51,257 nt of DNA from Candidatus Nomurabacteria bacterium (GTDB lineage: Bacteria; Patescibacteriota; Minisyncoccia; Phycocordibacterales; UBA9973), in contig CALRFQ010000005.1 of the NCBI GenBank assembly GCA_943356675.1, positions 1 through 51,257 of the forward strand. The letters are read 5' to 3'. A program made the position numbers and the translations under genes. Positions within the stretch are counted from its first letter, which is position 1; every line of letters starts with the position of its first letter. The notes under the pieces are model-generated. The model was not told where the DNA came from. It did not search any database and was given only the letters and a program-made list of their open reading frames with translations. Below, one piece after another: positions 33,099-47,885 of this stretch.

Positions 33099-36000
33099 AT
33101 GGAAAGAAACCCAAGAAAAACAAAAGCATTCATAATAACCTTCATCTCAGTGTTGGCATTACTTATCATTGCTTACTTCCTGTTTTTCCGTGGTGACGGC
33201 AAGATTTCTCAAACACTTAGCGGAATACAAAAAACATTCTCACCACTTCTTGGAACCTCAAAACCAAAAGACATTAGTACTGTTACAAATTCTAGCTCTA
33301 CGGGTAGTACAAGTAGTAGTAGCGGAAATGGTGCATCATCTAGTGGCAGTATAGCAGGCACAAGCTCTGGAGCAGGGAATGGGGGGACTCTTGGAGGTGG
33401 TACTACAAAAAATGGTATCAAATATCCTACGCAATGTAGCGATGGGGTAGATAATGATGGCAGAAATGGTATAGATATGGCAGACAGGAGCTGCCACACT
33501 GATGGAAATGCAAACAATATAAATAGTTATAACCCAGAGAGTGCTCTTGAGTACGACTTCTCTACTCTAGGGAATGGGACTACATCAGTACCACAGTGTG
33601 CAGACGGAATAGACAATGATAATAAGAACGGCGCCGATGCAAAAGACAAGAGCTGCCACACTGACGGAAATGCAAATAATACAAAAAGTTATAGTAAAAA
33701 TATATTACTCGAGTTTGATTTCAAAGCTAATGGTAAAAACACGAACAATACACCACAATGTAGTGATGGAGTAGACAACGACGGCAAGAATGGAATAGAT
33801 ATGGCGGATAAGAGCTGCCACACAGATGGAAATGCAAATAATATAAATAGTTATAATCCAGAGAGTGCTCTTGAGTACGACTTCTCTGTGGATGGAAAGT
33901 ATCCTTTATATATTCCGCAATGTAGTGACTGGGTAGATACAAACAAGAATGGAACGAAAAATGTCGGTGATGCTGGAGACAATGATGGAGATGGATTAAT
34001 AGATTCACAAGATCCTGATTGTCATACAGATGGAAATGCAAACAATATAAATAGCTATAATCCCGACAGCGCGTTGGAATACGATTTTCTCTCTGTTTAT
34101 AAAGGTTTGAATACAGAAACTCAATGTAGTGACGGAGCAGACAATGATGGCAATGGGCTCGCTGACACAAAAGATCCAGGATGCTGGAAGGATAGAAATG
34201 ATCCTACTACTTATGATGCAAACGACTCTGTAGAGTTTGATATAAATACAAATGACTATGTTGATGCATGTACTGTGTCACTTATGAAAGCTCAGATTAT
34301 CACAAACCAAGCAGCTATAGACAAACTCGAAGCTGCTGCAGTTCTAGCATACAATAATTCATTCATTATAAAAGCTGGGAAAAGAGGAATCTGGCCAATA
34401 GTGAAGAAGGGTGGAGGTGGTGGTGGACCAGTAAGCATCGGATCAGGACCTGTTACTACAGAATGTAGTGATGCGGCAGATAATGATGGTAATAATCTAA
34501 AAGATGAAAGTGACCCAAGCTGTCATACTGATGGCGACAAATATAATCCTGTATCTTATGATAAAACCATAGCAAAAGAATTCAACATACCTAAGGTTGA
34601 CACAGCTCCAGTGCTTGATTGTGTGGACGGCATAGATAATGATAGGAATGGACTATCAGACGCGAAAGACCCAGGATGCTGGACCAATATGATTGATCCG
34701 AGTACATATAATCTAAATGATAATTATGAAAAAATAGAAATTACTGAATGTAATGACAGTGTCGATAACGACAGTAATGGTGTGATAGATAGCAAAGACC
34801 CAGCATGCTGGACCAATATTAAAGATCCAAAAACATACAACCCAAGTTTGCTTTATGAGAACTTAGTGGGTACATTTACTATTCCTCATGTTCAATATAC
34901 AAAAACTACAGTTACGGTAGTTACAAAGAATGGCACACTCCTCATACCGGTTATCCTTCTTGGAATTTACCCTGGAAATATACTTCCAGTAAGTGACACT
35001 CTAATAAATAATTACTTAAATACGATGGGCTACGACAAACAAGCTGTAGACTCAGATGGCACAGCCTGCTTGATAAATGGAAGAGCTCCGCAATGTAATG
35101 ACTGGGTTGATACAAATAAAAATGGAAGAAAAGACAAGGGTGACAGTGGTGACAATGATGGTGATGGCCTTTTCGATCGCTCAGACCCAGGCTGTCACAT
35201 AGACAATAATCCTATACTTGCGTGGGACAAGACAAAGAATTCTGAAATAGATGGAACAAAAATAATCCACCCTCCTTATGTGCCTGCATGTAGTGATGGG
35301 GTAGACAATGACGGCGATAATCTAACAGATGAGAACGATCCAGGTTGCCATAGTGACCTGAACCCAAATGTAATCCTGTCGTACATACCAAATAAAACTA
35401 GCGAGCTTAATTTCATTCCTCAGTGTCGTGATAGTAAAGATAATGATGCGGATACTCTCGTAGATGACAAGGACCCAGGATGCCACACAGATTTGGACCC
35501 AAATAACGCTGCTTCATATGACCCCAATGCGTATACAGAATTCAATTTCATTCCACAGTGTCGTGATGGCAAGGACAATGACGGCAACAAACTTGCTGAT
35601 GATAAAGATCCAGGATGCTACACAGATCTCAAGATTACAAAGAAAACAGACGGTACTATCGACACTACGAAGTATGACCCAAATAAGGCAATAGAGTTTA
35701 AGTATCTAGCTCAGTGTAGTGATGGTATAGATAATGATGGCAAGAACGGAATAGACTCCGCAGATTTGGGATGCTGGGAGGATAAGACAGATTCAAGTAC
35801 ATATAATCCAGAAGACAATATGGAGGCAGAATTTAGTGGAGGATACACACCACAGTGTAGTGATTTGAAAGACAATGATGGTGATACATTCATAGATGCA
35901 GCAGATCCTACTTGCCACACAGATGGTAATGCAAATAACAACGGACAAGATGCTGCACATCCAAATACTTACGACCCTAAATACTATTCTGAATATGTTA

Positions 36001-37037
36001 ATCCAAACATAATTCCTCCTCCGAATCCTACTCCGTCTATAGCAAGCTGTGTGGATGTGCCACTCACATTCACACCAGAAGAGCAAAGAAGGCTTGATGA
36101 ATTGAAAAGGCAATTCGCATTACTCGCTCCAAAACTTAAAACTGATGCAGATATAATCACTGAAAATGACCAGAAGCAAAGCTATATTGATTTGGTTGCA
36201 AATGTGAAGGCTCTTACAATTCAGTGTTATGACCAGACAAGCCCTAGCAAGTATGCAGGCCCTCTAGACCGCTTGAGTAACCCATACTACAAGTCTCCAA
36301 CTCAAACTTCATTTACTTATGCTTCCACAGAGACTTCAAACATAGACAGTGGCACATGGCTTGGGGATTGGAATTACCTACACTTTGAAATAGATGCAAG
36401 TAAAAAGATTAACTCATACAAACACCTTGGTGATGCTAACGGGAACAGACCTAGATACGGCCTATACGATATAAAGGAAATAATCGATAAAGCAGACAGG
36501 GAAAATAAAATATTCCTAGATCGGAGGGATGTGTATAACTCTGCAATAGGAACGCAAGGTTCACCAACGCTTTCACAATTTAATAATGGAGATTATGTAA
36601 GTAATAAAGATATGGAGGTAGACCCAGCCTTCTCATCTACACCAAAACTAAATACTATATACCAAATAGCAGAAGGATATGTAAACACTATTGGAAATGA
36701 ATATTCTTGTACTCCTAACAAAGTTTCCAAAACTTACGATGAAACTAAACACACCAGCCCAGATAACATAGATGTAGTGTATGTATGCCCATTCCTAGAT
36801 GGATTAAGAAAAATGATTTATGATGAAACTCCTATCATAGTGAATGGTAATATAAGAAGCGGTGCCCATGATGGAGGTAGCTATCAAGTAACTAGTTTAC
36901 AGAAAATTAATGTGAAAGTTCTAAAGAGAATGGTGGACAACCTTGTAATGAAAGTGAAGAATGGTGACCCTTCAAACACAAGTTCTATATATGCATTCCC
37001 ACTTTACGACTTCGAGCAGGTAGTGAAAATCTGGTAA
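33099..37037 (+). CDS. Giant surface protein with fourteen Asp/Cys calcium-type repeats
   Basis: 1312 residues: one N-terminal transmembrane helix (11-31), a Ser/Gly linker (about 55-105), then about 14 repeats of 40-50 residues with the core QCSDGVDNDG-x5-D-x3-D-x-x-C. Examples are DGIDNDGKNGIDSADLGC and DNDGDGLIDSQDPDC. Each repeat has two conserved Cys and an Asp/Asn-rich DxDxDG loop expected to bind calcium and to be cross-linked by a disulfide, giving a stiff rod. The C-terminal 330 residues form a different domain (WLGDWNYLHFEIDASKKINS, with a few Cys). Neighbouring repeats are nearly identical at DNA level (33489-33563 against 33813-33887: three differences in 75 bp), so repeat number may change by recombination. 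Probable adhesin or stalk of the apparatus (inference). Confidence 0.8.
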   Translation: MERNPRKTKAFIITFISVLALLIIAYFLFFRGDGKISQTLSGIQKTFSPLLGTSKPKDISTVTNSSSTGSTSSSSGNGASSSGSIAGTSSGAGNGGTLGGGTTKNGIKYPTQCSDGVDNDGRNGIDMADRSCHTDGNANNINSYNPESALEYDFSTLGNGTTSVPQCADGIDNDNKNGADAKDKSCHTDGNANNTKSYSKNILLEFDFKANGKNTNNTPQCSDGVDNDGKNGIDMADKSCHTDGNANNINSYNPESALEYDFSVDGKYPLYIPQCSDWVDTNKNGTKNVGDAGDNDGDGLIDSQDPDCHTDGNANNINSYNPDSALEYDFLSVYKGLNTETQCSDGADNDGNGLADTKDPGCWKDRNDPTTYDANDSVEFDINTNDYVDACTVSLMKAQIITNQAAIDKLEAAAVLAYNNSFIIKAGKRGIWPIVKKGGGGGGPVSIGSGPVTTECSDAADNDGNNLKDESDPSCHTDGDKYNPVSYDKTIAKEFNIPKVDTAPVLDCVDGIDNDRNGLSDAKDPGCWTNMIDPSTYNLNDNYEKIEITECNDSVDNDSNGVIDSKDPACWTNIKDPKTYNPSLLYENLVGTFTIPHVQYTKTTVTVVTKNGTLLIPVILLGIYPGNILPVSDTLINNYLNTMGYDKQAVDSDGTACLINGRAPQCNDWVDTNKNGRKDKGDSGDNDGDGLFDRSDPGCHIDNNPILAWDKTKNSEIDGTKIIHPPYVPACSDGVDNDGDNLTDENDPGCHSDLNPNVILSYIPNKTSELNFIPQCRDSKDNDADTLVDDKDPGCHTDLDPNNAASYDPNAYTEFNFIPQCRDGKDNDGNKLADDKDPGCYTDLKITKKTDGTIDTTKYDPNKAIEFKYLAQCSDGIDNDGKNGIDSADLGCWEDKTDSSTYNPEDNMEAEFSGGYTPQCSDLKDNDGDTFIDAADPTCHTDGNANNNGQDAAHPNTYDPKYYSEYVNPNIIPPPNPTPSIASCVDVPLTFTPEEQRRLDELKRQFALLAPKLKTDADIITENDQKQSYIDLVANVKALTIQCYDQTSPSKYAGPLDRLSNPYYKSPTQTSFTYASTETSNIDSGTWLGDWNYLHFEIDASKKINSYKHLGDANGNRPRYGLYDIKEIIDKADRENKIFLDRRDVYNSAIGTQGSPTLSQFNNGDYVSNKDMEVDPAFSSTPKLNTIYQIAEGYVNTIGNEYSCTPNKVSKTYDETKHTSPDNIDVVYVCPFLDGLRKMIYDETPIIVNGNIRSGAHDGGSYQVTSLQKINVKVLKRMVDNLVMKVKNGDPSNTSSIYAFPLYDFEQVVKIW

Positions 37038-37130: not shown

Positions 37131-39437
37131 GTGAAAAAATTCTTGCCATACATCTTCACATTGGTTATCATCGCGAACATCCTCGCGCCTATTTCAGTCG
37201 TATTTTCAAACAATAAAGCTCAAGTGGTGACTCAAAAAGCAGAGGCGGTAGGTGATAATGAACCGACTACTAAAGAAGCAATGGACCAGGCAAAATTAAA
37301 GGAAAAAGAGCTAAATAAAAATGAAGTGACTCCGAGCAATATGAGTCAATCTACAGGAGACAAATACGACACTAGTTTTTTTATTTGTATGCTAGATCCT
37401 AGGCCACATTGGAATGGGGAGCGATCGTGGGCCGCATGTTTTATTGGAGTATTTGATGTAATATTTATTATAACAGCAAAGTTAATGGCCTATGCAGGTA
37501 TGTTTTTCGATTGGACAGTGGGCTACTCACTAGATAGTAACTCCTATAGGTCTACTTTTGTGACGGAAGGGTGGGGTATAGTGAGGGATATGTGTAATGT
37601 ATTCTTTATATTTATACTTTTATATGTTGCATTCTCTACTGTACTAAATCTTCATGGCTTTAAAACAAAAGAAATGATAGTGAATGTAGTTATAATTGGA
37701 CTCTTGATCAACTTCAGCCTATTTGCTACGCATGTCATTATAGACACTTCAAACATTCTAGCTCGAGTATTTTATAATAATGTGGAGGTAAATGTCGGGA
37801 CAAATAGTAATGGTACAAACACAGTAGTTGCAGGAGTGGACACAGGTGTAGATAAAAATCTAACTTCAGATCTAGGTGAGAAGCATCTATCAGCATTATT
37901 AGTAAGTAAAATCAACCCACAAGAGATTCTTACAAATGCTTCTAAATTGGAACCAGGGAGTGCTGGCAGCATAAGTGCTGGTACATTTTTAATTATTTCT
38001 TTCTTGTCTATTGTAATGTGTATTATAGGTACAATAGTTTTCCTATCAGTAGGATTAGTATTTATAGCTAGAGTCATAGGATTATGGCTTGCTATGGTAC
38101 TAGTGCCTCTCACATTCTTCTCATACACAGTGCCAGCACTGCAAGACATAGACATGGTGGGTTGGAAGAAGTGGTGGCCAGAAACTCTCAATCTCGCATT
38201 CCTAGCACCGGTATTCATGTTCTTCTTATATTTGATTATTAAATTCCTTGATACTGGTCTGGGATTATTTAATGCTGGCTCAAAAGATGGTATTCAATGG
38301 CTAATGGGAATAATAATTCCATTCATCTTCCTTATGGTACTACTATGGAAAGCAAAGGGTATTGCGACAAAAATGTCTGGTGAACTCGGTCAGCAAATTA
38401 CTGGTGCCCTCGCAGCTACAGCCGGCCTCGCCCTTGGTGGTGCAGCACTAGGAACAGCATTACTAGGAAGAAAGGTTATTGGACAGACAGTGGCGAGAGC
38501 TTCGAGGGGGGAGACCGCTACACAAAAGTATGAAGCTGGAAAAGCAACTGGTGTAGGTAAGGTGACTGGGTGGGTTGGATCAAAGCTTAAACTAGGAAGA
38601 GTGTTTGGTAACACGAGAGATGCAAATGGTACTATTAACAATGGTATTGGAAGTATATTAAATGAAAGACAAAAGAAAGTAAACGAGATAGAGCATGGCC
38701 GCCATGAATTAGAATCTCTAAAAGAGAAGGCCCACTTGAAAGATGTGTCTGATGAAAATTTGTCAGGTGAAAATATCAAAACCCTAAAAACAACATATAA
38801 TAAAGATAAAAGAGGTGAGATTGAAGCAGATATTCGTAAGGGGGCTAAACCATTAGAAGATGAAAATGGTGTTTCATACGCAGGAGGAGAAAGTGGATTT
38901 AAATCAGCTAATAGAACAGCTTTTGTAAATAAAATGAAGAAAGAGGATGTAGATAGTATGGATATAAATGGAGACCTTACTGATGAAGCAAAAAAGAAAG
39001 TGGAAGACCAGCTTACAGTACAATTTAATGCAGCCCTGAAAATATCTGCTGACAAGGCAAGCGAAGCAGGGTTTACGCATTTGCAAGAGGAAGCAAAGAG
39101 ACAAATTAGCATAGGAGACAGATTAGTTTCAAAATCAAATACTGGAACATACGATGTAAGAAACATTTCACAGAGCAAAACTGATAAAAGAGAAGGTATT
39201 GTAACGAAACTCGGAGTTGGTGCTGTAGCAGGGATTGCTCTAGCTGTTAGAACTGGACTTAAAAAATCTGTAGATGTTAACCATGGTACTGGTCAAGGAA
39301 ATTTCCTAAAAGATTTGAGTCACACTTTTACTGAGGCGATGAAGAGCGCTAAAGTAGATGTAAAAGTTGCTGCACCTCATGGCGGAGGAGATCACGGTGG
39401 AGGGCATGATGACCATGGGGGAGGAGGACATCACTAG
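37131..39437 (+). CDS. VirB6/TrbL-like polytopic membrane protein with a His/Gly-rich tail
   Basis: 768 residues from a GTG start. An N-terminal signal-like helix (YIFTLVIIANILAPISVVFS) precedes a polar loop and about six to eight transmembrane segments between residues 100 and 460 (DVIFIITAKLMAYAGMFFDW, NVFFIFILLYVAFSTVLNL, VVIIGLLINFSLFATHVII, WLAMVLVPLTFFSYTVPAL, LAPVFMFFLYLIIKFLDTG, IIIPFIFLMVLLWKAKGIA). This is the usual layout of the VirB6 inner-membrane channel protein of type IV secretion systems. The C-terminal 300 residues are charged and cytoplasmic, ending in a metal-binding-like tail (HGGGDHGGGHDDHGGGGHH). GTG is chosen because it begins the KKFLPYIF signal; TATACT lies 29 nt upstream. 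Confidence 0.8.
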   Translation: MKKFLPYIFTLVIIANILAPISVVFSNNKAQVVTQKAEAVGDNEPTTKEAMDQAKLKEKELNKNEVTPSNMSQSTGDKYDTSFFICMLDPRPHWNGERSWAACFIGVFDVIFIITAKLMAYAGMFFDWTVGYSLDSNSYRSTFVTEGWGIVRDMCNVFFIFILLYVAFSTVLNLHGFKTKEMIVNVVIIGLLINFSLFATHVIIDTSNILARVFYNNVEVNVGTNSNGTNTVVAGVDTGVDKNLTSDLGEKHLSALLVSKINPQEILTNASKLEPGSAGSISAGTFLIISFLSIVMCIIGTIVFLSVGLVFIARVIGLWLAMVLVPLTFFSYTVPALQDIDMVGWKKWWPETLNLAFLAPVFMFFLYLIIKFLDTGLGLFNAGSKDGIQWLMGIIIPFIFLMVLLWKAKGIATKMSGELGQQITGALAATAGLALGGAALGTALLGRKVIGQTVARASRGETATQKYEAGKATGVGKVTGWVGSKLKLGRVFGNTRDANGTINNGIGSILNERQKKVNEIEHGRHELESLKEKAHLKDVSDENLSGENIKTLKTTYNKDKRGEIEADIRKGAKPLEDENGVSYAGGESGFKSANRTAFVNKMKKEDVDSMDINGDLTDEAKKKVEDQLTVQFNAALKISADKASEAGFTHLQEEAKRQISIGDRLVSKSNTGTYDVRNISQSKTDKREGIVTKLGVGAVAGIALAVRTGLKKSVDVNHGTGQGNFLKDLSHTFTEAMKSAKVDVKVAAPHGGGDHGGGHDDHGGGGHH

Positions 39438-40708: not shown

Positions 40709-41110
40709 ATGCAATTCAAAGTACCACAATTTATAGATGTCGAAGACAAACTCTTTGGACCTTTCACATTTAAAGAGTTCGTATATCTAGCTGGTGGAGC
40801 AGGGCTTATCTATGTAATTTATAAATTAGTAATCATATGGATCGCTGTACCACTTATCATAGTAGTAGCGGCATTTTCTGCAGCATTAACATTCTATAAA
40901 ATAAATAATAAACCATTTATCTATTACGTACAGGCAAGCATAACATACGCCCTAAAAAGCAAGCTGTATATATGGAAACAACATTTGAAGAAACCAGAAG
41001 TAGTAAAAGACAAAGTGGCAGAGCAAACAGAAGCACTACCCGCTATGACCACAAGTAGGCTCAAAGATTTGGCATGGAGTTTGGATGTTTTGGATCAGGC
41101 ACACAAGTAG
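40709..41110 (+). CDS. PrgI-family membrane protein (VirB3-like)
   Basis: 133 residues. The N-terminal FKVPQFIDVEDKLFGPFTFK is the PrgI-family signature, followed by a tight pair of transmembrane helices (residues 28-46 and 47-65: LAGGAGLIYVIYKLVIIWIA and PLIIVVAAFSAALTFYKIN) and YVQASITYALKSKLYIWKQH. PrgI proteins correspond to VirB3, which links the VirB4 ATPase to the inner-membrane complex. That fits its place directly before the VirB4 genes. Only 3 nt separate it from the upstream gene, so translation is coupled. Confidence 0.88.
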   Translation: MQFKVPQFIDVEDKLFGPFTFKEFVYLAGGAGLIYVIYKLVIIWIAVPLIIVVAAFSAALTFYKINNKPFIYYVQASITYALKSKLYIWKQHLKKPEVVKDKVAEQTEALPAMTTSRLKDLAWSLDVLDQAHK

Positions 41111-41204: not shown

Positions 41205-41849
41205 ATGGCATTAAATGCTCGCGCAGCACAAGAATTTGTTCCCATCAAAGAAGTTCGTGATGGAGTCATCGTCCTAAAAGACGGGGGCTTGCGTGCTGTC
41301 CTCATAGCATCGTCTATAAACCTTTCTCTAAAATCAGAAGATGAACAGCATGCAACCATAATGCAGTTCCAGACATTTTTAAACGGACTCGATTTCTCTG
41401 TGGAAATTTCCGTGCAATCCCGCAAGCTTGATATCCGCCCATACATAGTATCTCTTGAAGAGAGAATGAAGCTCCAAACTGAGCCACTAATCAAGCTTCA
41501 AACAAAAGAATATATGGATTTCATTCGTTCTTTCACTGAAGAAGTAAACATAATGACGAAAAGTTTTTTCGTGACTATCCCATACAGTGGCGACACTAGC
41601 TTCGCTCCAAAAAAAGGTTTCTTTGATAAATTATTTGGTGGTAATCAGAAAGCAACCACAAAAGAAGAAGATTCAAAAACAAGATTTGAGGAGAAGCGCA
41701 CTCAGCTCGACGAGAGAGTAGGGGTAGTAATGCAAGGACTCGGATCTTTTGGTGTGCGTAGCACTCAGCTCGGCACAGAGGAAATAATTGAACTGTTCTA
41801 CAAGACATTTAATCCGGGTGATATAAGTCAGGGAGTAAAATTACAATAA
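41205..41849 (+). CDS. VirB4/TraC N-terminal-domain protein (separate half of a split VirB4)
   Basis: 214 residues. VPIKEVRDGVIVLKDGGLRA, then VLIASSINLSLKSEDEQHAT and FQTFLNGLDFSVEISVQSRK, match the start of VirB4/TraC-type ATPases, where this region binds the inner-membrane complex and comes before the P-loop part. Here it is encoded alone, stops at 41849, and the ATPase part starts 4 nt later in a different frame with its own ATG. It contains no Walker motif. A Lys/Gly-rich loop (FGGNQKATTKEEDSKTRFE) near 145-160 is probably flexible. Expected to assemble with the next product as one functional VirB4. Confidence 0.75.
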   Translation: MALNARAAQEFVPIKEVRDGVIVLKDGGLRAVLIASSINLSLKSEDEQHATIMQFQTFLNGLDFSVEISVQSRKLDIRPYIVSLEERMKLQTEPLIKLQTKEYMDFIRSFTEEVNIMTKSFFVTIPYSGDTSFAPKKGFFDKLFGGNQKATTKEEDSKTRFEEKRTQLDERVGVVMQGLGSFGVRSTQLGTEEIIELFYKTFNPGDISQGVKLQ

Positions 41850-41853
41850 TTAT

Positions 41854-43686
41854 ATGGGAATAATATCAGACATTTTTGGAAAGAAAGGAAATGCTCAGCA
41901 AGGGCACGGCATGATACTTCCTGTACTTCCTGAAGAAATATACAAAGCAGCCACACTTGAGCTTGGTGATATCATCGCACCGTCAGCGCTGCAAATCACA
42001 CCAAAGTCACTAAACTTGGGGGACAAAATTGCTCGTACTTTCTTCGTAATCTCATACCCAAGGTTTCTCACAGACAACTGGTTCTCACCAATTATAAATT
42101 TGGATAAAATTTTCGATGTTGCATTCTTCATACACCCTATAGACACACCAGAAATATTAAAAGCTTTTCAAAACAAAGTGGCGGAGGTTCAGAGCCAGAT
42201 TTCAATCCGTGAATCAAAAGGAATGGTGCGTGACCCAATGCTCGACACTGCATACAATGACCTTGAATCTCTTCGTGATTCTCTTATGCAAGCTCAGGAG
42301 AAAATGTTTGATGTAGGACTATACATCACAATCTATGCAGACAGTGAGATAGATTTATTTAAAATTGAGAGTGAAATAAAGTCTCTCCTTGAGTCCAAGC
42401 TCGTATACCTTAAGCCGGCGCTCTTCCAGCAGGAAGAAGCCTTTAAAAGTGTGATTCCACTAGGCACAGACATACTAGGTATTCACCAGAAGCTAAACAC
42501 AGAGCCTCTTTCATCTGTATTTCCATTCGTATCATTTGACCTTACATCAGACAAAGGAATACTCTATGGTGTGAACCGCCACAATTCAAGTCTTATAATA
42601 TTCGACAGATTCTCTCTTCCAAACTACAACTCTATTACTTTTGCTACATCTGGTGCAGGTAAATCATATGCAACTAAGCTAGAAATCTTGCGCACACTGA
42701 TGTTCGACACAGAAGTAATCGTGATCGACCCTGAAAGAGAATATGAATACCTTTCTGAAGCAGTAGGGGGCAGATACTTCAACATCGCACTTTCATCAGA
42801 TCACCACATAAACCCATTTGACCTTCCACTTCCTTCTGAGGATGAAACTGGCGCAGATGTACTACGAAGTAACACTATAAACCTAGTGGGATTATTCCGC
42901 ATAATGCTCGGAGGTCTTACTCCAGAAGAAGATTCAATCATCGACAGAGCCATTACGGAGACATATGCACTCAAGGACATCACAGCTGAATCAGATTTTA
43001 ATAATATCGAACCGCCACTACTTTCTGATATGGAAATGGTGCTAGCAGGGATGGATGGAAGTGAATCTATAATCCAAAGACTTTCAAAATACACTCGTGG
43101 TAGCTGGGCAACATTCTTAAACCAGCCATCAAATGTGGATATCAACCGCAAATTCGTAGTCTTTTCTGTGCGTGATATGGAGGACGAGCTCAAGCCGGTC
43201 GCTATGTACATAGTCACACACTACATCTGGAATGCAGTTAGGAAGAACATTAAAAAGAGACTCCTAGTGGTGGATGAGGCATGGTGGATGATGAAAAGTG
43301 AAGATACAGCATCTTTCCTATTCTCAATTGCTAAGAGAGGCCGTAAGTACTACCTAGGGCTTGCCACAATCACTCAAGACGTGGGCGACTTTATGAAAAG
43401 CCCATATGGAGTGCCTATTGTGACAAACTCTTCCATCCAGCTACTACTAAAGCAATCTCCATCGACGGTGGACCTGCTCCAAAAGACTTTCAACCTTACA
43501 GATCAAGAGAAATTCCTACTTCTTGAGTGTAATGTGGGGGAGGGCATATTCTTTGCAGGACTCAAGCACGTGGCTGTGAAGACCATCGCATCCTACACTG
43601 AAGACCAAATCATTACTTCTGACCCATCACAAATACTCGCCATAAAGAAAGCTAAGGAGGAGCTAGCGGCGGGAGAGAATAAGTAG
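41854..43686 (+). CDS. VirB4-like secretion ATPase
   Basis: 610 residues. The N-terminal part holds the mating-factor-like domain (LEKSLFDV-type: KMFDVGLYITIYADSEIDLF). The ATPase domain follows with Walker A TSGAGKS (K270), an IDPEREYEYL segment (the VirB4-type DPE motif), Walker B LLVVDEAWWM (D474, E475) and the ATITQDVGDFM motif. VirB4 energises assembly and substrate or pilin movement in type IV systems and resembles the DNA translocase TrwB/VirD4, but the DPEREY signature places it with VirB4/TraC. It is translated from its own ATG 4 nt after the N-terminal half. It ends the operon; repeat copy 3 follows. Cytoplasmic, membrane-associated. Confidence 0.92.
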   Translation: MGIISDIFGKKGNAQQGHGMILPVLPEEIYKAATLELGDIIAPSALQITPKSLNLGDKIARTFFVISYPRFLTDNWFSPIINLDKIFDVAFFIHPIDTPEILKAFQNKVAEVQSQISIRESKGMVRDPMLDTAYNDLESLRDSLMQAQEKMFDVGLYITIYADSEIDLFKIESEIKSLLESKLVYLKPALFQQEEAFKSVIPLGTDILGIHQKLNTEPLSSVFPFVSFDLTSDKGILYGVNRHNSSLIIFDRFSLPNYNSITFATSGAGKSYATKLEILRTLMFDTEVIVIDPEREYEYLSEAVGGRYFNIALSSDHHINPFDLPLPSEDETGADVLRSNTINLVGLFRIMLGGLTPEEDSIIDRAITETYALKDITAESDFNNIEPPLLSDMEMVLAGMDGSESIIQRLSKYTRGSWATFLNQPSNVDINRKFVVFSVRDMEDELKPVAMYIVTHYIWNAVRKNIKKRLLVVDEAWWMMKSEDTASFLFSIAKRGRKYYLGLATITQDVGDFMKSPYGVPIVTNSSIQLLLKQSPSTVDLLQKTFNLTDQEKFLLLECNVGEGIFFAGLKHVAVKTIASYTEDQIITSDPSQILAIKKAKEELAAGENK

Positions 43687-43758: not shown

Positions 43759-43771
43759 TATGTACTATAAT
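43739..43771 (+). promoter_or_regulatory. Shared promoter module, copy 2 (pilin operon); fixes a GTG start
   Basis: The same 20-bp block as at 41165 (43739-43758), 7 bp, TATAAT (43766-43771), then 6 nt to a GTG at 43778. The frame also opens at ATG 43760, but that ATG lies upstream of the -10. Confidence 0.65.
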
Positions 43772-43777
43772 ATAAAG

Positions 43778-44764
43778 GTGAAAAGATTTGTCCTAAAGTC
43801 TACTATTCTATTTATTTTGCTAATGACCATAAGCACTCCTTTTGTAATGCATGCAGAGTCTAGTATAAATGAAAGTGATGTTAATGTAGAAATAAATCCT
43901 CAAAATCCAGCCCCAGGAAAAAATGTGACAATCACAGTTTCAAGCTATTCTGCGAATTTAAACAGAGCTCAAATTGACTGGAAAGATAATGCGGGGAATG
44001 TTCTATCTAGTGGGGTGGGGTCCACAAGCTACTCACTTGTGGCTGGCGGACCAAATAGTGATGTAAATGTGCAAGTATATATCACCCCATATGGAGACAG
44101 CACTGCAGTGGTAAAGCAAATTTTTATTCACCCTACAGATGTGGACATCCTTTGGCAATCTATCGACGGATATGTGCCCCCATTTTACAAAGGGAAAGCT
44201 TTACCCACTAGCGAGAGTGTGATCCGTGCAGTAGCTATGCCAAATGCTGGGGCAGTGGCAAATAACAACAACATTGTTTACACATGGAAGCTCGAGCACA
44301 ATACTATGAGCAAATTCTCCGGCTATGGCAAAGATTCATTTACATTCGAGAACAGCTACCTAAGAAACACTGAGCATATAAATGTGAGTGCATCATCTGT
44401 GAACGGATCTTATAATGCAGAGAACAGTATTACAATTCCAATACAAAAATCAAAAGTATTATTTTATTTAAAAAACCAAGACGGGACTGTAAATTACAGC
44501 AATGCTCTTGCAGACAATTCACAAATAAGTGGGGAAGAGAGTACTATCGTGGCAGAGCCTTACTTCTTTCCACTCACTAGCGGAGCAGGATCACTTAAAT
44601 ATACTTGGAAGATAAACGGGGGTGCAATAGATACACCAAGAAACCCACTATCTCTCACAATCAGGCCAGCATCCACAGGTGGCTATGCTACAATTTCATT
44701 ATCAATCGACAATATATCAAAATTATTCCAAAGTGTATCAAACACTTTAAAACTTAATTTATAA
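43778..44764 (+). CDS. Secreted Ig/PKD-like protein
   Basis: 328 residues from GTG 43778 (VKRFVLKS, then the signal core TILFILLMTISTPFVMHAES). The mature part is beta-rich with three Ig/PKD-like sandwich repeats: INPQNPAPGKNVTITVSSYS...IDWKDNAG, AYTW-type YTWKLEHNTMSKFSGYGKDS, and LKYTWKINGGAIDTPRNPLS. There is no C-terminal anchor. It starts the operon with the pilin-lysozyme gene (3 nt gap) and shares its promoter module with the VirB4 operon. Likely an extracellular subunit or adhesin of the apparatus; no catalytic motif. GTG is preferred to ATG 43760 because of the promoter position and because it begins the signal peptide. Confidence 0.72.
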   Translation: MKRFVLKSTILFILLMTISTPFVMHAESSINESDVNVEINPQNPAPGKNVTITVSSYSANLNRAQIDWKDNAGNVLSSGVGSTSYSLVAGGPNSDVNVQVYITPYGDSTAVVKQIFIHPTDVDILWQSIDGYVPPFYKGKALPTSESVIRAVAMPNAGAVANNNNIVYTWKLEHNTMSKFSGYGKDSFTFENSYLRNTEHINVSASSVNGSYNAENSITIPIQKSKVLFYLKNQDGTVNYSNALADNSQISGEESTIVAEPYFFPLTSGAGSLKYTWKINGGAIDTPRNPLSLTIRPASTGGYATISLSIDNISKLFQSVSNTLKLNL

Positions 44765-44767
44765 AAT

Positions 44768-46627
44768 ATGAAAAAATATATCTTTATCTTAACAATTTTA
44801 TCTTTACTAGTAGGTAATTTTGCTTATGCAAGAATTGATTTAAGCACTGATACAGATAAAGTTGCAGTAAATGATAATATTCTCTCAGTAAAAGTGGATT
44901 TCTTGGCAAATACCGCTCAAATAAATGCACAAAAAATAGTATACACAGGATCTACAAAAACAAGTGCCGGCACAGTACTTCAAGCGGTGTCTGGGTCGAT
45001 ATCTGTAAATTCAACTTCGAACCCAAATGTAAATGGCACAGCAACAATAACAATAAATTTAGATAAAGCAAAACATCCAACAGGTACTACTTTTACATTA
45101 TATTTAGCAGATAATGATGGCTCAAATTTTACTACATCATTTAATACACCGTCATCTTATAAAACTGCTGCGGGTTCTGGCGATTTTTATTATACTACTG
45201 GCTATGATTTAGGTGTAGCATCAAATTATTCTATTTACAAAAATGATATAAACAATAGCTTCTTTAGATTTACCACCTTAGCAGCATGCACCACAGCATG
45301 GCAAAAAGCTATAGATGATATGTATTCAACAGAAGGTATTGGTTACAGTAGAAAAACTATTAAATTTACTGAATGTTTTGAATCAAAAAATTTAATCCCA
45401 GCACTAAATACTTTTATAGGTAAACTTAAAGAATATGGCACATTCTCATCTTCAGTTCCATTTTATTACTATAGTTGGAACCAGTATGATAACACTTGGG
45501 GCGGATCAATAGGCTTTAAAACTAAAGATGCCTGTGATAAAAGAGAGAAACTTGAATTCGGAAAAGGAATAGTGTCACATTGTGCACCGTATAGTATTCC
45601 ACCAAAACAACCAGTGAGTTGGAATGGAAATGCTGTAAATGTAACACCAACCCCAAATACACCATATAAAGATGAGTATAAATTACTTGCCCCAATTCCT
45701 GGACTTACTGAGATAAATAGTACGACTACAATTAGTGACTATTTGAACATAATATTTAAAGTAGGTATCGGGCTCCTTATCGCACTCTCAGTGATAATGC
45801 TTGTCATACACGGCGTTCAATATATGGGCGATGAATCAGTATTCGGCAAGACGGAAGCTATGCACAGCATCCGCGCCACAATAGGAGGGCTACTACTCGC
45901 TCTTGGTGCTTATGCAATATTAAACACGATTAATCCTGATCTGGTAAATGGAAGTTTGAATATTAAGAAATTAAATTTTACAATAACGCCTACTAGTAGT
46001 AACACCTCAACAGGAGCTACATCAACTATGTGTGTAAAATCTGCAAATGATCCAAACCCTGATGACGCAAAAGGTTGGAAAATAGATATTAATGCTTATC
46101 CTCTTATAAGAGATGAATATATTCCAGCGATTGATAAAAATCTACCTCTGGGTGCCCAATACTTGTTAACAGCACATACAATCGCCGAAGGATTTTCTAA
46201 AACAAATGGTAGAGCATACCCAACTCATAATCCAGGTAATATAGGTAATACAGACCCAGCTGGATTACCCCTAGACTGTGGTGATTTTAGTACTATTCCA
46301 CCTGAGGGGAGAAAAGCAGTTTCTAAAAACTCATATTGTTTTAAAAATCTTACTGATGGAATTAATGCACAAGCTAAGCATTTTAGAATAGTAGCTAACA
46401 AAAATGCCACGTCTAAAGAGTCCTCCTATGTAGTAGGTGGAACTTATGCTGAATGTACATTAGGTGGAGTTCCTTATGACGGATCTCTATATCAATACCT
46501 GTGGATTTATGCTGGTGGTGCTAGGTTAGATAATGGTTATGCAAATATTATAATCGGATATTTTGACTCAAAAGGAAAAACAATAACAGCCAGAAGTAAA
46601 ATGTGGGATATTTATAATATAAAATAA
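44768..46627 (+). CDS. VirB2-like pilin-type protein fused to a lysozyme-like domain
   Basis: 619 residues. Signal peptide YIFILTILSLLVGNFAYA. An extracytoplasmic region of about 300 residues includes a Cys/Trp-containing domain. Then come two transmembrane helices, near 325-347 (IIFKVGIGLLIALSVIMLVI) and 369-390 (ATIGGLLLALGAYAILNTI), with the spacing and Gly-rich character of VirB2/TrbC pilins. Residues 435-619 look like a peptidoglycan hydrolase: a candidate catalytic Glu474 (HTIAEGF) and the HNPGNIGN motif (487-494) seen in muramidase/glucosaminidase-type domains, then NLTDGINAQAKHFR and a C-terminal YANIIIGYF. This combines VirB2-like and VirB1-like roles in one chain. It follows the Ig-like gene by 3 nt. 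Confidence 0.75.
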   Translation: MKKYIFILTILSLLVGNFAYARIDLSTDTDKVAVNDNILSVKVDFLANTAQINAQKIVYTGSTKTSAGTVLQAVSGSISVNSTSNPNVNGTATITINLDKAKHPTGTTFTLYLADNDGSNFTTSFNTPSSYKTAAGSGDFYYTTGYDLGVASNYSIYKNDINNSFFRFTTLAACTTAWQKAIDDMYSTEGIGYSRKTIKFTECFESKNLIPALNTFIGKLKEYGTFSSSVPFYYYSWNQYDNTWGGSIGFKTKDACDKREKLEFGKGIVSHCAPYSIPPKQPVSWNGNAVNVTPTPNTPYKDEYKLLAPIPGLTEINSTTTISDYLNIIFKVGIGLLIALSVIMLVIHGVQYMGDESVFGKTEAMHSIRATIGGLLLALGAYAILNTINPDLVNGSLNIKKLNFTITPTSSNTSTGATSTMCVKSANDPNPDDAKGWKIDINAYPLIRDEYIPAIDKNLPLGAQYLLTAHTIAEGFSKTNGRAYPTHNPGNIGNTDPAGLPLDCGDFSTIPPEGRKAVSKNSYCFKNLTDGINAQAKHFRIVANKNATSKESSYVVGGTYAECTLGGVPYDGSLYQYLWIYAGGARLDNGYANIIIGYFDSKGKTITARSKMWDIYNIK

Positions 46628-46628
46628 T

Positions 46629-47885
46629 ATGTCAAAAAAGTTATTAATGTTAATAATAGGGAGCATACTAATCCTAGGAGGGGTAGGGGTCTTCATATAC
46701 TACAAAACTGCTGCCACAACGACTGGAGCAAATACTGCGACGAGTACATTTAAAAGTTTCCTACCATTCGGACTTGGTAATAGCTCTGGCACTACAGCAG
46801 GCGACACTACAAACACAAATACAGTGGGTGGTGACACTACCTCAGGAGTAGGCACAGATGGTGCAGCCCCAAGAGATGTATTAACACAGGTCACTACTTA
46901 TGGAGTAACGGGGGCTAATTCTTTTATGGTTATGAAGGCCACACAACCAGGTGATACAAATACGGCTACTCAAAATGCCTCGGCTATAAAGTTTATTGAG
47001 AAATCAAATGGTCACATTCACCAGATATTTATAGATGATGGTCAGAGTTCAGAAATAGATAATTCTGCAATTCCAAATACTTATGAAGCATTATTTAGCT
47101 CTGCTGGTGATTCTGTGGTGTACAGATACTTAGATGATACAGGGAAGAACATACAGAGCTTCTTAAGTATAGTGGGTATGCCTAGTGGTCAGTACCTACC
47201 AGAAAATGTAATTTCTATTTCTTCCTCGCCAGCAAATTCATCGTTCTTCTATATTACAAAAGATGAAAAAAATAATGCAGTAGGAAACCTCTTCACCCCA
47301 GCGGGAAGTAAGAATGTAAAAGTATTTAAATCTCCATTCTCAGAGTGGAATACCGACTTCACTGGAGCTGAAAATGTATATCTTACAACGAAGCCATCCT
47401 ATAATACAGAGGGTTCTGTATATTCTCTAAACACTAGAACTGGCATATTTACAAAGGTTTTGAGTGGTATTAAAGGCTTAACTACAAAGGTTAATCAGGA
47501 TAATTCTAGAATGATTTACAGTAGTAATGAAGGTAATGGTCCTAAGCTTTATGTGTACAATATCCAAAGTCACGAGATAAAAGATACTGGACTATATAGC
47601 TTCGCAGATAAATGTGTCTTTGCTTTTAATAAGATAGATGCATACTGTGCTATTCCAAACACAAATCCTAAAATCCAAAACCCAGATCTATGGTACCAAG
47701 GACTTGAATCTTATTCAGATTCTATTTTCAAAGTAAATACAAATACTGGCACAATATCTCAAGTTATTGACACAAGCATAAAAGGCGAGATAGATGCTAC
47801 AAATCTATTCCTAGATAAAACAGAGAATAATTTATTCTTCACAAATAAAAAAGATTCCACTCTCTGGAATCTAAACCTAAAATAA
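46629..47885 (+). CDS. Membrane-anchored beta-propeller-like surface protein
   Basis: 418 residues. A transmembrane anchor at 4-25 (LLMLIIGSILILGGVGVFIY) is followed by a Thr/Gly/Ser-rich linker (28-80) and a beta-rich domain with several repeats of about 45 residues ending in aromatic/Ser motifs (DSVVYRYLDDTG, SSFFYITKDEKNNAVGNLFT, SRMIYSSNEGNGPKLYVYN, NLFFTNKKDSTLWNLNLK). This is the pattern of TolB/WD40-like propellers. Two Cys near 315-330 may form a disulfide. It starts 1 nt after the pilin-lysozyme gene and closes the operon at a strong terminator. Exact role unknown; probably an outer part of the apparatus. Confidence 0.7.
   Translation: MSKKLLMLIIGSILILGGVGVFIYYKTAATTTGANTATSTFKSFLPFGLGNSSGTTAGDTTNTNTVGGDTTSGVGTDGAAPRDVLTQVTTYGVTGANSFMVMKATQPGDTNTATQNASAIKFIEKSNGHIHQIFIDDGQSSEIDNSAIPNTYEALFSSAGDSVVYRYLDDTGKNIQSFLSIVGMPSGQYLPENVISISSSPANSSFFYITKDEKNNAVGNLFTPAGSKNVKVFKSPFSEWNTDFTGAENVYLTTKPSYNTEGSVYSLNTRTGIFTKVLSGIKGLTTKVNQDNSRMIYSSNEGNGPKLYVYNIQSHEIKDTGLYSFADKCVFAFNKIDAYCAIPNTNPKIQNPDLWYQGLESYSDSIFKVNTNTGTISQVIDTSIKGEIDATNLFLDKTENNLFFTNKKDSTLWNLNLK

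Follow-up and report, generated by a model that had tools for sequence, protein, structure and literature searches.

A T4SS pilin-type hairpin joined to exchangeable predicted wall enzymes in a family of Patescibacteria

Why should one gene code for both a pilin-type membrane region and a putative enzyme for the cell wall? The question is raised by an open reading frame at positions 44768..46627 in the DNA of a Candidatus Nomurabacteria bacterium, of which the genome assembly comprises 719 kb and is 98.5% complete. The window, i.e., the whole stretch of DNA which was analysed, covers 51,257 nucleotides, and all of its features given below with coordinates in the form 44768..46627 lie on the forward strand. 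The original prediction pointed out that VirB2 (the pilin) and VirB1 (the wall lytic enzyme) are separate proteins in classical systems, and claimed that here a signal peptide, an extracytoplasmic domain, two VirB2-like helices and a C-terminal domain of lysozyme type are joined in one polypeptide.

Patescibacteria are a group of very small bacteria, most of which are uncultured. A 2025 survey of their type IV secretion systems (T4SS), machines which export DNA or protein, reported VirB2-like pilins in 1,948 assemblies; most of the genomes with VirB2 are without VirB1, and its authors concluded that these systems can do without a VirB1 homologue (PMC12102498). The survey does not mention a fusion of pilin and wall enzyme, nor does the accessible part of the review PMC12857230, and we found no published report of one in the open-licence literature. 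It should be noted that a search with VirB1 profiles would largely miss wall enzymes fused in this way. T4SS genes, including those for pilins, are essential for epibiotic growth of the cultured relative S. epibionticum (PMC10633639), and for this reason a wall enzyme carried on a T4SS subunit offers a direct and testable idea of how Patescibacteria cross walls. What we describe is one large family in which a predicted wall enzyme is fused to a pilin-like protein and belongs to one of many unrelated enzyme families. Beyond the earlier observation, we find that many families, not homologous to one another, replace each other as the enzyme part.

The fusion gene and its slot in the operon

The reading frame runs from ATG to stop and its translation gives a protein of 619 amino acids. 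Together with hydropathy it bears out the predicted layout. Residues 1-21 (44768..44830) are signal-peptide-like, with a hydropathy peak at residues 5-23 and a cleavage site whose exact place is put from the sequence. The N-terminal domain, presumably extracytoplasmic (approximately residues 22-290, 44831..45637), gives no Pfam match and varies among orthologues; it has partial similarity to two homologues (L002, 42%, and L014, 30%), both with other C-terminal domains. The VirB2/T4SS_pilin-like helical hairpin region (approximately residues 295-407, 45650..45988) was delimited by an alignment of 40 family members and contains two hydrophobic helices, residues 328-346 (45749..45805) and 370-388 (45875..45931), located by hydropathy and separated by a short loop. 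The C-terminal part behind the hairpin, here called the passenger, is the putative lysozyme-like domain CL4 (residues 435-619, 46070..46624).

The VirB2-like assignment is weak when the window protein is considered alone, PF18895 giving an E value of 0.21 in the Pfam search and 16.9 bits in a search of its own genome, which is below the cut-off of 26.6 bits. It gains its support from several orthologues with the same hairpin, which score above the cut-off with up to 37.4 bits. The known T4SS pilins of Patescibacteria (PF18895, PF04956) resemble the fusion in that a hairpin of two hydrophobic helices follows a signal peptide and in their VirB4/PrgI locus. They differ from it in size: the pilins have about 100-140 amino acids, and a small mature subunit of about 100, whereas the window protein has 619 with large domains on both sides of the hairpin. 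A further difference is that the genome keeps a separate array of small pilin-like genes on another contig, away from virB4 (L300; G000 contig C8, 3774-7265). The same region codes in addition for a protein of 613 amino acids in which Ig-like segments are repeated and which ends at its C-terminus in a pilin hairpin. The small pilins of contig C8 could form a fibre with the fusion as a minor subunit, or be unconnected with it.

Upstream of the fusion gene we find a polytopic membrane protein without Pfam match, called VirB6-like from its position and topology (37131..39437), the PrgI (VirB3-like) protein (40709..41110; PF12666 at 2.4e-8, above cut-off), a separate reading frame taken from its position to be the N-terminal part of VirB4 (41205..41849; homologue in 71 of 81 loci), the P-loop part of the VirB4-type ATPase (41854..43686; PF19044 at 3.3e-25) and a signal-peptide protein of 334 amino acids (43760..44764). 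Downstream lies a gene for a protein of 418 amino acids (46629..47885), followed by yidC, rnpA and dnaA, named from a reading of the sequence. VirB4 and PrgI in one operon with the fusion is what is found at a monoderm (MPF_FATA-like) T4SS locus. Two side observations were made in this region: the split of VirB4 into two reading frames (41205-43686) is kept in at least 71 of the 81 family loci, and positions 33099-37037 code for a secreted protein of 1312 amino acids, in which a unit of the type CxDGxDNDxDxxxDxxDPxCxxD is repeated approximately 20 times and resembles calcium-binding repeats.

A homologue of the fusion protein was found in 129 of 147 family genomes by the protein search of these genomes; the full-length protein as query against genome contigs gave no related locus. 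To describe the slot, 81 family loci were fetched with flanks. VirB4 lies upstream of the fusion gene on the same strand in 76 of them, mostly about 1 kb away; same-strand homologues of the 43760 gene are present in 77 and of the 46629 gene in 80, the latter gene usually starting no more than about 25 bp from the fusion gene. The fusion gene therefore occupies an orthologous slot and, judged by its neighbours, belongs to a T4SS operon near dnaA. Since orthologues at the same operon position carry wall enzymes recognised by Pfam behind the same hairpin, the predicted fusion appears to be the norm for this slot rather than an oddity of a single genome, and the claim that pilin-type hairpin and wall enzyme are joined is supported.

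The C-terminal domain of the window protein

The passenger of the window protein gives no match in Pfam, PHROGs, NCBIfam or PDB sequences. In the Pfam and PDB sequence searches it matches neither an SLT nor a CHAP domain of VirB1 type, and no sequence profile of the GH73/lysozyme superfamily. Its relatives were found in the family (six) and on viral contigs (63 loci). An alignment of 55 rows, 48 of which come from viral contigs, has E474, G475, N488-N494, Y581 and Y591 as invariant positions. Glu474, the candidate catalytic acid (codon 46187..46189), and HNPGNIGN (residues 487-494; NPGNIGN, residues 488-494, 46229..46249) are thus where they had been predicted to be, and as E474 and NPGNIGN are kept in all 55 sequences the motif is not there by chance. 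Loss of E474 among orthologues, taken together with absence of lytic activity, had been named beforehand as one of two outcomes which would speak against the idea, the other being a predicted fold unrelated to lysozymes; a conserved catalytic-type Glu is a trait of the GH73/lysozyme superfamily, and Glu is found at this position in 55 of 55.

In the three phage relatives tested, PG_binding_1 precedes the CL4-type domain (9e-16, 1.6e-11 and 2.3e-11), an order of domains usual for endolysins; in other phage relatives the domain is found inside large tail-like proteins. An hhalign comparison of CL4 with a phage protein annotated as 'lytic tail protein' gave a probability of 96 and E 2.3e-9. Phage endolysins and tail lysozymes (IMG/VR contigs L122-L184; the lytic tail protein of Tunturiibacter phage Tunturi_5) thus have a homologous domain with the invariant E and NPGNIGN, but carry it free, after PG_binding_1 or in tail proteins, whereas in the window it follows a pilin hairpin.

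Foldseek searches of PDB and BFVD with a first structural model of CL4, based on 7 sequences, gave nothing of use. With a deeper alignment the AlphaFold model improved (pLDDT 87, pTM 0.87) and GH73 folds surfaced: the top four PDB matches, each of GH73 type, are Auto, AtlA, a type VI effector and a FlgJ-like hydrolase. The matches are weak, with E values of 0.13 to 3.6 and TM-scores of 0.31-0.40, the match at E 0.13 having a TM-score of 0.35. By hhalign, CL4 and a Patescibacteria PF01832 protein align at E 0.034 with E474 and the GNI motif paired, and control comparisons of the CL4 profile with other, unrelated passengers gave E 0.29-0.59. The likeness to GH73 glucosaminidases (PF01832: FlgJ, AtlA, Auto, Tge) thus consists in the nearest folds and in a Glu followed by GNI; the unlikeness consists in the missing sequence match to the family and in TM-scores below 0.5. 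The lysozyme-type fold which had been predicted is weakly favoured by the identity of its four nearest neighbours, but their scores leave a GH73-type fold suggestive, not secure. On sequence and model together, CL4 is probably a phage-type GH73-like glycosidase.

Exchange of the enzyme behind the hairpin

With a profile of the hairpin we collected 107 C-terminally complete homologues, in 97 of which the hairpin is followed by 100 or more amino acids. The passengers fall into clusters of 22, 12, 12, 8, 7, 7, 6, 6, 4, 3, 3, 2 and 2 plus singletons, i.e., at least 13 sequence clusters, most of which appear to be mutually unrelated wall-enzyme families. Pfam recognises VanY (13), NlpC/P60 (12), SLT (11), SLT_2 (7), Peptidase_M15_4 (6), YkuD (4), SLT_3 (4) and others, where one passenger may match several families. 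The largest cluster (CL0, 22 members) has no Pfam name and obtained no family from PHROGs, NCBIfam or PDB sequence searches; it keeps an H...D...E..HxH pattern and by this motif alone is LAS-metallopeptidase-like. The genus of the window itself (g1) already has most of the passenger classes.

About ten homologues have a short or non-enzymatic C-terminus. All but one belong to a single clade (L040, L041, L043, L047, L079, L092, L098, L100, L110 and L090, genus g24), which seems to have lost the wall enzyme; the other, L111, stands elsewhere in the tree.

The relation between passenger and ancestry was analysed on a FastTree tree of the hairpin plus neighbours with 92 tips. On this tree passenger class requires 59 changes; in 200 shuffles of the labels the mean was 65.9 and the number was never below 60. 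There is therefore a trace of inheritance, but little, and passenger type is nearly independent of ancestry. Of 276 pairs of loci with 70-80% flank identity, 31 have passengers of one class, which is close to the approximately 11% expected at random as computed from class sizes.

The closest pair (L071 and L072) has a hairpin region identical in protein, followed by an M15 passenger in one and an SLT-type passenger in the other. The flanking DNA is 87% identical in the upstream piece and about 97% downstream; the break comes directly behind the hairpin and the match resumes past the stop codon. We considered that one of these loci is an assembly chimera, against which it counts that both passengers belong to clusters found in other genomes. 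At a further locus (L113) two tandem genes with an identical core carry an NlpC/P60 and an SLT-type passenger. The slot thus behaves as a cassette in which wall enzymes, non-homologous by sequence, have been replaced repeatedly while hairpin and operon are kept, and loci which are identical except for the enzyme offer a natural experiment. That unrelated families replace the enzyme suggests that it is used to break through cell walls, perhaps those of a partner.

The wall that would be opened, and the pattern outside the family

The reading to which we lean, with a confidence slightly above even, is that of an exchangeable wall enzyme anchored to the T4SS. It supposes a T4SS-associated membrane subunit built on the VirB2-like hairpin, of which the signal peptide would place both ends outside the cytoplasm. 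The C-terminal end would be a peptidoglycan-cleaving domain, in the window a glycosidase of phage type, probably GH73-like, for which E474 would be the catalytic acid. This enzyme would be tethered by the subunit to the secretion machine, where it would do the wall-opening job of VirB1 in cis. No SLT, NlpC/P60 or GH73 gene was found elsewhere in the window's own genome, and the fusion is therefore the best candidate for VirB1 function there. Known wall enzymes of T4SS operons (VirB1 and the monoderm hydrolases PrgK, TraG and TrsG) resemble it in their place, and SLT and NlpC/P60, families of VirB1 type, are among the orthologous passengers. They differ in that the enzyme of the window is joined to a pilin-like hairpin, that its family is not fixed in the slot, and that neither SLT nor CHAP models match its domain.

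The main target in this favoured reading would more probably be a wall which varies, that of a partner or host where the two cells make contact, than the cell's own; the reason is that non-homologous enzymes have been replaced repeatedly while hairpin and operon stay, and a variable target would make it easier to see why enzymes that differ in bond specificity take each other's place. Several points count against it. The producer's own wall could be opened by any one of these enzymes, the match of the fold has little statistical weight, and the enzyme is not indispensable, since about ten homologues lack a long enzymatic end. Furthermore, L,D-transpeptidases and D,D-carboxypeptidases alone do not dissolve a wall. 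A wider version, which we put forward tentatively and think rather unlikely, holds that Patescibacteria swap wall enzymes, some of them phage-derived, on a pilin-like T4SS carrier in order to suit the wall of the host microbe; if it is true, the passenger is a determinant of host range.

A serious rival, although we doubt that it is correct, is neutral exchange on the cell's own wall: the enzyme would only make room for the T4SS, and any wall enzyme would serve. This is what VirB1 does in classical T4SS (PMC12102498). Mur ligases are encoded in the genome, for which reason the organism probably has a wall of its own, and the missing SLT, NlpC/P60 and GH73 genes and the absence of an immunity gene beside the passenger fit this rival as well. 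Close relatives should, however, have walls of one chemistry, whereas the class of the passenger hardly follows ancestry; furthermore, one clade does without the enzyme.

It is improbable that the passenger serves to kill competitors, as an effector which has diversified in the manner of the Rhs or CDI polymorphic toxins. A conserved carrier, an exchangeable C-terminal domain, a sharp boundary and tandem variants are what such toxins would lead one to expect, and T4SS with peptidoglycan-hydrolase effectors are known (PMC11253643). Against it, the toxin part is not adjoined by a variable immunity gene, for which there is no room since the conserved downstream gene usually follows so closely; moreover, the recognised passengers of the family are all wall enzymes, whereas Rhs/CDI toxins carry a mix of nucleases, deaminases and others. 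Still less credible is a non-catalytic anchor which binds peptidoglycan and tethers the apparatus without cutting, for although the passenger of the window protein could be assigned to no recognised family and its fold is matched weakly, and YkuD domains can attach proteins to peptidoglycan, the catalytic-type Glu474 is invariant and the largest cluster retains the zinc-ligand pattern of LAS type.

The hairpin itself is widespread, its profile matching 377 of 384 genomes of the class and 311 of 334 of the phylum. Among 71 long C-terminal parts from outside the family, taken irrespective of virB4 adjacency, Pfam detects wall-type enzymes in a minority (C39-like, SLT, M15, M23, GH18 and NlpC/P60). 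Enzyme passengers therefore recur outside the family, but it is for this family only that a near-universal pattern is seen. The outside examples include hairpins followed by GH18, M23 and C39-like domains (L232, 1738-2883; L290, 1263-1988; L281, L284 and L286).
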